64,000 nucleotides of DNA from Tupaia tana. Taxonomy: Eukaryota > Chordata > Mammalia > Scandentia > Tupaiidae. Position numbers and translations under genes: made by a program. The notes beneath the pieces were generated by a model, which saw only the letters and a list, made by a program, of their open reading frames with translations, had not been told where the DNA came from and made no database searches. Of the stretch, positions 31,501 to 34,500 are shown piece after piece (positions within the stretch are counted from its first letter, which is position 1; the number at the start of each line of letters is the position of its first letter). Where the stretch lies: positions 78,524,408 to 78,588,407 of the forward strand of contig JAKSZU010000009.1 of NCBI GenBank assembly GCA_026018925.1, given 5' to 3'.

Positions 31501-34500
31501 AGGGATTGTGGCGTGACCATCCCCCCTGGGGGGTGATTTCTCGCTTTCTGTCTCTCTGTCTCTCTCTGTCTGTCTGGCGAGCGCACACGCCCTATAGCGA
31601 AAACCTCTCCAAAAAAAAAAAACTCTTTAAAGATTTGACTTTTAGTAACTAAAACTTAAAATGAAAATTATTTTATTCTAACCTTTACAAATATAGAATA
31701 TTATTATTGATAATGCCAATATGGCAAAACTATAACTCTAAAATCACTAGGAGTAAACAAATGTAAAAGTCGTATAAATTAGTGTCCAGGGCCAATTTCT
31801 TTTCTTATATGTAAATATTCCTTTTTTTTTTTTTTGTTATATGGTACGTGCACTTGCTGGACGGAAGACAAAGAGAGGGAGAGAAAATGAGATATCACCC
31901 CTAGGGGGGATGGTCATAACATGATCCCTTCTCCATTCTCTTGGGATTCTGGGCACACAAGCACATGCATCCAGTATGTCTCCTGAAACCGGTGGGTATG
32001 CGGGATTCTCTCAACTTAAGCTCCATGTCACCTGCTGGCCTCCAAAGTTTCTTATTTTTAATATAAACAAAATGTCTAGGGGCCCCGCCCCGCCGGGCCT
32101 GCGTGCCGTGGCGCTGCATCTCCGGCGCTGGGTATGTCCCGCGCTCGGCGTCGATGCGGACCAGCGGCACGGACCGGCCGAGCTCACCAACCTTCCTTTC
32201 TCGGGGCAGGCGGGCAAGCGGGGGGGGATGGCGCTGGATCCCGCGCACATTTGTGCGCTCGGGGCTAGCGTGTGGCCGCTGGGCCTGTACGTGGCTGCCG
32301 GGCCTGCGCGTGGTCGCCAGGCCTGAGTGTGGTCGCTGGGCCTGCGCGTGGCCGCCGGGCCTGAGCGTGGCCGCAGGGCCTGCACGTGGCCGTCGGGCCT
32401 GCACGTGGCCGCCGGGCCTGCGCGTGGCCGCCGGGCCTGTACGTGGCCGCAGGGCCAGCGTCTGCGCCTGGTCACCGGGCCTGCATGTGGTTGCCGGACC
32501 AGCGCAAGGCCGCCGTGCCTGCGCATGGCCGCCGGGCCTGTGCCTGGTCACCGGCCTAGTGCGTGACCACAGGGCCTGTGCATGGCCCCCAGGCCTGCCC
32601 GTGGCCACCGGGCCTGAGCCTGGCCCCCGGATCTGCGCGTGGCCATTGGGCCTGCGTGTGGCCGCCGGGCCTCCGCGAGGCCCCCGGGCCCGCGCGTGGC
32701 CTCTGGGCCTGAGTGTGGCCACTGGGCCTGCGCCAGCGCGTGGCCGCCGGGCCTACGCGTGGTCACCGGCCCAGCGTGTGACCACCGGGCCTACACGTGG
32801 CCCCCGGGCTGGCGCTTGGGTGCTGGGCCTGGGCGCTGGGCCTGCACGTGGCCGCCGGGCCTGAGTGTGGCCGCCGGGCCTGCACGTGGCCGCCGGCCCG
32901 GTGCGTGGCCCCCGGGCCTACGCGTGGCCGCCGGGCCTGCGCGTGCGCGTGACTGCCGGGCCTGTGCGTGGCCGCCGGGCCTGCGCCTGTGCGTGGCCGC
33001 TGGCCTCAGTCGACAAACTGAGGCCGAAAACTAGGAATAAGAACTTGCAACTACAAACAACAGAAAGAAACTTTAGCTGTCTTAAACCAATTGAGAAATA
33101 TATTGTATAGGAGGATTGTCTCCGCCTATGGACAGTGAGAAGATGATGGTCACCAGCCCTGCATTACCTCAGGGAAAAACAAGAACTACTCTACCATTCT
33201 TAAGGAAGCCAGATACCCGAGGATGACTCACGCTGCAGATCCCCACAACACCATTCCCGGTAACCACAAGATGGATGCTGTGCTGCATCAACTGATAATC
33301 ATCTCTGCCTTCAAGAACGGCTTTCCTGAAACTGTCTTACATGGAGATTCACCTACAACTGCGGAACTACACGAGACCCACCCTTAATTCAACCCTGATA
33401 GAATCTATGCTCCCTATTGTTAAAAACTTTATGAGCTGATAATTGGAAAGAAAAAAAAAACCTGAAAGAACTGGAGGATATAATAGCAGGGAAGGCAACT
33501 GTGGATGCTAGAGACAGTATGGGAGAGGTAATGGGAATGAGTAATTGCGGGTGGAAGGGAGGGATTCAGGAAACAAACAACACACTTAATAGACACAAAA
33601 ATGAAAAGTTGTCTGTTGATGATAATGTACATGGTAATATCATTGTCTTGACTAATGTGCACTGTATTCATGCTGGGAAAAACCATGTGTACATGGTGAA
33701 GAGATGCAATGACTAAATGTAATAATTGAAATAAAAAAAAGAAACACTTTCATAGGATTTAAAGAAAAACAAAAAAACAAACAAAAAAAATGTCTACAGA
33801 CCTATGTACTCTGTCTACCAATCTAAAACAAGTCTGACATTTTATAAATCAGCTTAGATGGAAAAATAAAGAACAAATATGTAACTAAATCAAAATCTGT
33901 AAATAAAATAACCTGATCAGAGAATATCAAATAAGCTAATAAAACTGCAATAAAAAGTAAGCAAGCAGGCATCAAAATGATCTAAGAATATTTGGATATC
34001 CATATGAATAACTACCTAAATTCATTTTTATCAATATTGAAAAAAATAATATTTGGACTCAATTTCTTAGGTTTCTTTTTTTTTTTTAAGAATTATTTTA
34101 TTAGGGACCAGTAGTTGGTGTAACGGCTATGTCACTGGACTCCAATGAAGTCAATCATGGTTCGAGTTCTGGACCCAGTGGCTTTAAACTCATGCCAGGC
34201 ACATGTGCGTGTGTGCCCAAGATTCCTAGAGGAGAATGGAGGACAAGGGATTGCAGTGTGGCCATCCCCCCTGGGGGGGTGATTTCTCACTTTCTGTCTC
34301 TCTCTGTCTTTTTGGCGAGCGCACACGCCCTATAGCAAAAACTTCTCAAAAAAAAAAGGAATTATTTTATTAAACTTTATTTATTTATTTATTTACTTAT
34401 TTTAATTTGACCAGAGAGGGACAGAGTGAGAGAGAGAGGGTGGGAGGGGGGGAGTGAGATAGCAAGTTGCCAGGTCCAGGACTCAAACTGTGGTCAGCCA

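Follow-up and report, generated by a model that had tools for sequence, protein, structure and literature searches.

The DNA analysed here, called 'the window', is a stretch of 64 000 nucleotides from the mammal Tupaia tana, which corresponds to positions 78524408-78588407 of contig JAKSZU010000009.1 in an assembly of 2.95 Gb and 1198 contigs (GCA_026018925.1). Embedded in the AT-rich DNA of the window is a GC-rich insert (32079-33786, in window coordinates, as are all positions below unless another stretch is named), which is a member of a young, multi-copy composite family. It is very likely that this family is an SVA-like composite moved in trans by L1, and that at least two of its founder RNAs underwent adenosine-to-inosine (A-to-I) editing and founded the two subfamilies that are designated E1 and E2 below.

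From 5′ to 3′, the insert comprises a GC-rich head, a variable number of tandem repeats (VNTR), a body of unique sequence, an L1-type 3′ end and A-rich tails (Table 1). This layout had been proposed in a sequence-only reading of the window; it is present there, and head, VNTR, body, L1 end and A-tail recur in this order in all 21 copies available in full. The same reading had counted about 38 units of a 19-bp minisatellite, a number on which Tandem Repeats Finder (TRF; score 567 for a repeat from about 32268 to 33003) and the wrap-around alignment used for the unit count agree. The contrast in composition with the surroundings, also pointed out earlier, is borne out by the observed/expected (o/e) ratio of CpG, which is 0.80 in the VNTR and 0.85 in the 1-kb bin 32001-33000, against values of at most 0.33 in 53 of the 64 bins of the window (next highest bin, 0.76). 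The presence of an L1-homologous 3′ part was likewise upheld. Its extent was not, since an L1 sequence in another locus of the genome (L020) aligns from near 33459 onward, so that the L1-type part starts there and not at about 33540. Upstream in L020, the frame reads like the C-terminus of L1 open reading frame 2 (ORF2), a likeness to the L1 stretch L075 noticed by eye. At about 3600-5900 of L020 (oriented), upstream of its old L1 3′ end, lies a stretch that by eye resembles a degraded provirus.

Table 1. Parts of the composite copy in the window and the related old L1 fragment
Feature	Position	Strand	Basis or remark
Left target-site duplication, AAAATGTCTA	32069..32078	+	Exact direct repeat
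GC-rich head, 5′-truncated here	32079..32267	+	26 CpG, o/e 0.99; at least 40 genome matches
VNTR, 19-bp unit, about 38 units, a few extended to ~25 bp	32268..33003	+	TRF, wrap-around alignment
Unique body	33004..33458	+	At least 40 genome matches, 95-98% apart from self
L1-type 3′ end	33459..33731	+	Alignment to L1 sequence in L020 and to old L1 at 56101
AATAAA and first A-run	33730..33740	+	Direct reading
About 24 nt between A-runs, read as 3′ transduction	33741..33764	+	Inference from two A-runs
Second A-rich tail	33765..33786	+	Direct reading
Right target-site duplication, AAAATGTCTA	33787..33796	+	Exact direct repeat
Old L1 3′ end, outgroup	56101..56278	+	76% to 33543-33722

The direct repeats said to flank the insert are there, 10 bp long and exact. 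Taken alone they are weak evidence, because when about 2000 pairs of 50-bp stretches were drawn at random, 15 of them had at least 10 bases in common; the evidence for retroposition rests on other copies. The segment between the two A-runs looks like a short 3′ transduction. Protein and RNA databases added little: four frame pieces of the body gave no match in Pfam, an Rfam scan of the window gave none at the gathering score (weak evidence on an Alu-like region), and an exact-pattern scan of viral contigs returned nothing of use. Two motifs of the head appear to be kept by eye, namely GGTATGT (32132-32137) in 17 of 21 copies and CTTCCTTTCT (32192-32203) in 20 of 21. They recall a splice donor and a splice acceptor, a hint at a CpG-island first exon as the origin of the head.

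Family structure and insertion

The genome was searched with the head (32079-32262) and the body (33007-33500) separately, as the sequence-only reading had suggested, and the best 40 matches were scored out of 1145 and 2522 first-look candidates, respectively. The scored numbers are lower bounds, and the candidate numbers are loose guides to copy number; with at least 40 matches to the head and at least 40 to the body, a single-copy oddity is ruled out. Twenty head matches were retrieved as long loci of 9.5 kb each and the remaining 19 as 1.6-kb stretches starting 3′ of the head. A further 20 copies were picked by the body alone and examined for VNTR and L1 end, and four more were picked by an E1-type 3′ end (see below). 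Together with the window copy, the 63 fetched copies make up the 64 examined; the 21 available in full are the basis for the full order, the VNTR spans and the target duplications.

The expectation of tens of copies with common junctions was confirmed. The junction between body and L1 end was found in 63 of the 64 copies (the window copy and 62 of the 63 fetched) and that between VNTR and body in 59. Head, VNTR, body and L1 end are consecutive in 20/20 long loci, where the body of L009 and L015 is interrupted by a later short interspersed element (SINE). Among the 1.6-kb stretches, 18/19 hold body, L1 end and A-rich tail, and 16/19 have VNTR matches 5′ of the body, the stretches of L029, L037 and L043 starting inside the body. 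The one deviating copy, L047, has the VNTR and 45 nt of body followed by other sequence, the L1 end not being seen in the 1.6 kb fetched. All 20 copies selected by the body have the L1 end, and 18 of them VNTR matches upstream (L054 is truncated at the start of the body and L059 inside the VNTR, with about one unit left by eye). The four copies picked by the 3′ end all have the body and, by eye, the VNTR. The length of the VNTR differs between copies, as predicted, and spans 345-995 bp in 21 copies.

The GC- and CpG-rich nature ascribed to the head holds, whereas the boundary first drawn for it does not. According to GC profiles, GC-rich sequence continues at least ~50 bp 5′ of the start of the window copy in 17 of the 20 long loci, and the head in the window is therefore 5′-truncated. 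This additional 5′ GC region is tandemly repeated in two of the five loci run on TRF, with periods of 46 (L009) and 38 (L023). Outside CpG, the bodies of 19 copies differ by 2.9% in mean pairwise comparison and by 0.4-3.8% from the majority. At an assumed substitution rate of 2.2e-9 per site per year, the copies would be about 2-17 million years old, that is, young.

Target duplications of the L1 type, which had been expected of other copies, were found in 16/21, with lengths of 7-20 bp; their limits were set manually on local alignments, and each was then verified as an exact string. AAA stands at the start of 11 of the 16, and seven are preceded by TT, which fits the L1 endonuclease. The copies inspected at their 3′ ends have A-rich tails, that of L063 being only four As, and L010, like the window copy, has extra sequence between two A-runs that is read as a 3′ transduction. 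These hallmarks suggest that the composite was moved in trans by the L1 of the host. As a separate observation, L016 and L019 share an A-rich integration site, AAAACTCAC, each inside a copy of the local SINE, which may be a hot spot of insertion.

The L1s of this genome were sought with a peptide of the L1 reverse transcriptase, and among the best 150 scored of 27616 candidates there are many with open frames of 1290 codons. Dozens of L1s with such an ORF2 suggest very recent L1 activity. Stretches of 3.4 kb surrounding the 5′ end of three intact L1s and of 1.1 kb at the 3′ end of five were retrieved, and all belong to one lineage. Their 5′ untranslated region (UTR) is built of GC-rich monomers of 129 bp: L073 has 13.4 perfect units or more (at 1-1730, cut by the end of the stretch), L074 has 2.1 units (at 2334-2600) and L072 has 216 bp of the same sequence. 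A 100-amino acid open frame reading like ORF1 follows the monomers. In BLAST at E 0.01, the three 5′ and the five 3′ stretches matched no part of the composite, be it head, VNTR, body or 3′ end. The L075 3′ end aligns locally with that of the composite at a best score of 24, the same as the top value among 200 shuffles, against 91 for the old L1 at 56101. As the intact L1 3′ ends are unrelated to it, the composite 3′ end comes from another, older-looking L1 lineage.

A-to-G clusters in the 3′ end

By ordinary markers in the 3′ end, the copies form three groups: a beta group with 33587 T>C and 33654 A>T, a gamma group with 33569 G>C and 33705 T>G, and a third with all other copies. On this background, two sets among 59 aligned copies are rich in A>G changes: E1, with 23-25 each, has seven copies (L011, L016, L025, L035, L056, L060 and L064), and E2, with 6-9 each, has ten (L015, L019, L024, L027, L032, L033, L049, L051, L055 and L065). 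Elsewhere the counts are 6 in L041, 4 in L028 and 0-2 in the other 40 copies. The clustered changes span 33493-33680; the window copy, with no A>G in 33481-33731, is one of the unedited copies. E1 and E2 are delimited by the counts and sites of A>G, and the telling point is the absence of any other type of difference. With near-fixed differences defined by a threshold of 70% in both groups compared, the seven E1 copies differ from five unedited gamma copies at 25 positions and the ten E2 copies from twelve unedited beta copies at eight, and every one of these differences is A>G. Sites 33580 and 33680 are common to both sets. Additionally, the four E1 copies compared over the body share A>G there, at positions 33075 and 33084. 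For copies outside these sets, A>G accounts for 30 of 222 departures in the 3′ end (cells of the alignment, not independent events); at this background rate, the chance of 25/25 is ~2e-22 and that of 8/8 is ~1e-7.

ADARs disfavour a G on the 5′ side of the edited A. None of the 31 edited As has a 5′ G neighbour, compared with 24 of the 62 other As (Fisher p=1.0e-5), and for E1 alone the value is p=2.7e-4.

The two sets differ in their ordinary markers. Both beta markers are found in 10/10 E2 copies, while the gamma markers among the seven E1 copies amount to 7/7 for 33569C and 6/7 for 33705G. In a tree of 39 copies from which all A>G columns had been removed, E2 falls in a clade with the unedited beta copies (ultrafast bootstrap 99) and E1 groups with the unedited gamma copies (94, the tree being unrooted). 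Of the 25 E1 sites, 22 are A, one is G and two are gaps in the old L1 at 56101; the L1 in L020 has A at 20/25, and that in L038 at 14/25 with nine gaps. Nesting within unedited clades together with A at most sites of the outgroups makes A the ancestral state.

In a search with the E1-type 3′ end of L025 (best 40 of 1806 candidates), ten matches lie at 94-100%; the next is at 88%, with the unedited copies at or below 87%. All 10 E1 matches carry the composite body, and no L1 with the E1 pattern ranked among them. Three E1 copies were added in this way (L068, L069 and L070), with 22-25 A>G at the same sites. The 88% copy, L071, is without the gamma markers or 33587C and has a cluster of its own (33485, 33600, 33606 and 33607, which make up 4/5 of its departures). 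L041 also has a small A-to-G cluster, of six sites, outside E1 and E2. Markers are mixed in L048, which combines 33569C of gamma with 33587C and 33654T of beta; this suggests that copies have exchanged sequence or that the same changes have recurred.

Proposed founder editing and competing accounts

Clusters consisting of A-to-G changes only, together with the missing 5′ G, form a signature that points to ADAR, and hence to A-to-I editing of founder RNAs; at least two founders appear to have been edited, and probably some single copies as well. More broadly, it is likely that a non-hominoid mammal has evolved its own SVA-like composite and that A-to-I RNA editing repeatedly founded heritable subfamilies in it (E1 and E2, with L041 and L071 as lesser clusters). 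In the course of events proposed here, a GC-rich, CpG-island-like RNA (5′ GC region, head and 19-bp VNTR) would run into the body and an old L1 3′ end, which would provide the polyadenylation site. L1 proteins would prime on the A-tail at TT/AAAA-like sites, giving rise to target duplications and 5′ truncation, and the length of the VNTR would change from copy to copy. During this spread, the L1-type 3′ end of at least two founder RNAs would have been edited, the likeliest route being ADAR acting on a duplex formed with antisense L1-type RNA. Reverse transcription of the edited RNAs, with inosine read as G, would have turned them into the source genes of E1 and E2. Double-stranded RNA over 33493-33680 would be required, for which the candidate partners are antisense L1-type RNA or an inverted L1 3′ end that the source locus would contribute by read-through. 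As a guess, antisense partners of the L1-type end elsewhere in the genome would account for editing focused there.

Several points weigh against this account. ADAR is named from the DNA pattern alone, and trans mobilisation by L1 is inferred from insertion hallmarks, with no clear duplication in 5 of the 21 copies (L009, L017, L021, L022 and L024); moreover, the 3′ UTR of the intact L1s is unrelated to that of the composite. For the eight sites of E2 alone, the 5′ G context is not significant (p=0.11). With the three added copies, the gamma markers are incomplete in E1 (33569C in 9/10, 33705G in 9/10), and E1 and E2 do not form separate clades in the A>G-stripped tree, as is expected if edits alone mark them. 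In the local fold of one unedited copy, only 2/25 edited As are paired, compared with 22/62 of the others. Local folding was rejected as the editing substrate on this ground: since the edited As are mostly unpaired, hairpins of the 3′ end itself would be insufficient, and an antisense or inverted partner is assumed. Finally, an inverted L1 3′ end is absent from the 20 long loci (best minus-strand E 0.14), including the E1 copies L011, L016 and L025; the expected source, however, is an unedited gamma copy, and few of these were read at length.

Competing accounts concern both the composite and its G-rich ends. The composite might be an internally deleted L1, its head and VNTR being an ordinary L1 5′ UTR joined to the 3′ UTR by splicing or deletion, which the sequence-only reading had named as an outcome that would undo its proposal. 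The 3′ end is indeed L1-type, tandemly repeated 5′ UTRs exist in the L1s of this genome (the 129-bp monomers), and the ancestor could be an L1 that is extinct, or older than the one lineage examined, and whose 5′ UTR was of this kind. However, in that lineage the intact L1s with a 1290-codon ORF2 match neither head, VNTR nor body (three 5′ ends) nor the composite end (five 3′ ends), which led to rejection of an internally deleted member of the lineage itself, and, the window copy left aside, 38 of the best 39 head matches have the L1 3′ end directly behind the body, no L1 end having been seen in the L047 stretch. Such a derivation is thus very unlikely. A related account would have the G-rich 3′ ends gained by recombination with another L1 subfamily. 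It could appeal to the altered part being the L1-derived one and to the mixed markers of L048, by which exchange may happen, but every one of the 33 near-fixed differences is an A>G change, the A>G changes of E1 extend into the body (33075 and 33084), and 10/10 close matches to the E1 query, among the best 40 of 1806 candidates, are composites. On this last ground, derivation of E1 from an edited L1 subfamily was rejected, and recombination in general is extremely improbable.

The direction of change might also be the reverse, with the G-rich subfamilies being older and the majority having arisen by G-to-A hypermutation of a founder cDNA by APOBEC. Clustered G-to-A changes in retroelements are a known form of DNA editing in the excerpted passages of PMC2873906. 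Against this stand the A states of the outgroup L1s at the E1 sites (22/25 in 56101, 20/25 in L020, and 14/25 with nine gaps in L038) and the nesting of E1 and E2 in two different unedited clades of the A>G-stripped tree, which would call for separate G-to-A events at exactly those sites. The APOBEC direction was rejected for these reasons and is highly improbable. A last alternative concerns novelty and not mechanism, namely that the family is already catalogued as a host repeat (Dfam or Repbase). An assembly with contigs of up to 268 Mb and at least tens of copies may have brought it into a repeat library, although the titles and abstract openings listed from the open-licence literature yielded no VNTR composite outside primates; prior cataloguing is somewhat unlikely.

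Known relatives and neighbouring features

The element is an SVA-like composite with L1-type mobilisation. Its sequence layout sets it apart from SVA, LAVA, PVA and FVA, but it works like one of them. It shares with SVA a composite, non-autonomous nature, a CpG-rich 5′ part, a central GC-rich VNTR of varying length, an A-tail, L1-type target duplications, youth and 5′ truncation. It differs in the unit of the VNTR (19 bp, compared with 30-50 bp in SVA) and apparently in the 3′ part, which is a body with an L1 3′ end where SVA has a SINE-R derived from HERV-K, the order here being 5′ GC region, head, VNTR, body and L1 end. According to the excerpted passages of PMC4432496, a central VNTR and a 5′ region of CT-hexamer/Alu-like type are common to LAVA, PVA, FVA and SVA, LAVA carries a fragment of an old L1 (L1ME), and VNTR composites are called hominoid-specific, though SVA2 is listed in macaque. 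The present family resembles LAVA, PVA, FVA and SVA2 as a VNTR composite with its own captured 3′ end, which is L1-type much as the L1ME fragment of LAVA (PMC4432496, same passages). It departs from them in its VNTR unit and in the hexamer, no (CCCTCT)n start having been seen in 20 5′ ends read by eye, which begin with other GC-rich sequence. The passages of PMC13174262 on L1 chimeras mention SVA and contain no VNTR composite outside primates.

With regard to editing, APOBEC traces in IAP, HERV and AluY (PMC2873906, in excerpt) likewise are clustered changes of a single type recorded in retroelement copies; the change is the opposite one, G-to-A, and the examples are single edited sequences and not founders of subfamilies. 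No description of edited founder subfamilies was found among the titles and abstract openings listed.

Known ADAR hyper-editing events of repeat RNAs lie in transcripts. The present clusters share with them the A-to-G changes and the disfavoured 5′ G; in contrast, they are found in genomic DNA and are common to up to 10 separate insertions. The edited subfamilies would therefore be a genomic record of inosine-bearing RNA that was reverse-transcribed, inserted in the germ line and founded a lineage. This bears on whether ADAR merely restrains retroelements or diversifies them too: if the reading holds, RNA editing, usually seen as a defence, would have acted as a burst mutator of a mobile element that continued to spread. 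A second origin of the composite type, with another VNTR, head and 3′ end, would offer a comparative test of the features that L1 needs for efficient mobilisation in trans, the features to compare being the CpG-rich 5′ part, the GC-rich VNTR and the captured 3′ end.

The remainder of the window holds a few features of its own. On the minus strand, a frame at 43958-44320 has no match in Pfam or PDB; we take it to resemble BRWD3/PHIP, so that the element may lie in or near such a gene. A tRNA-like SINE is abundant: counting the query (31366-31612), the window has 29 matches of 120 bp or longer. The consensus of this SINE starts with GGACCAGCAGTTAGCGTAATGG, and an origin from tRNA-Gly is our guess. 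Beside old L1-like sequence at 54463-54690 lies a perfect 114-bp tandem duplication (two copies, 100% identical), which is apparently very recent.

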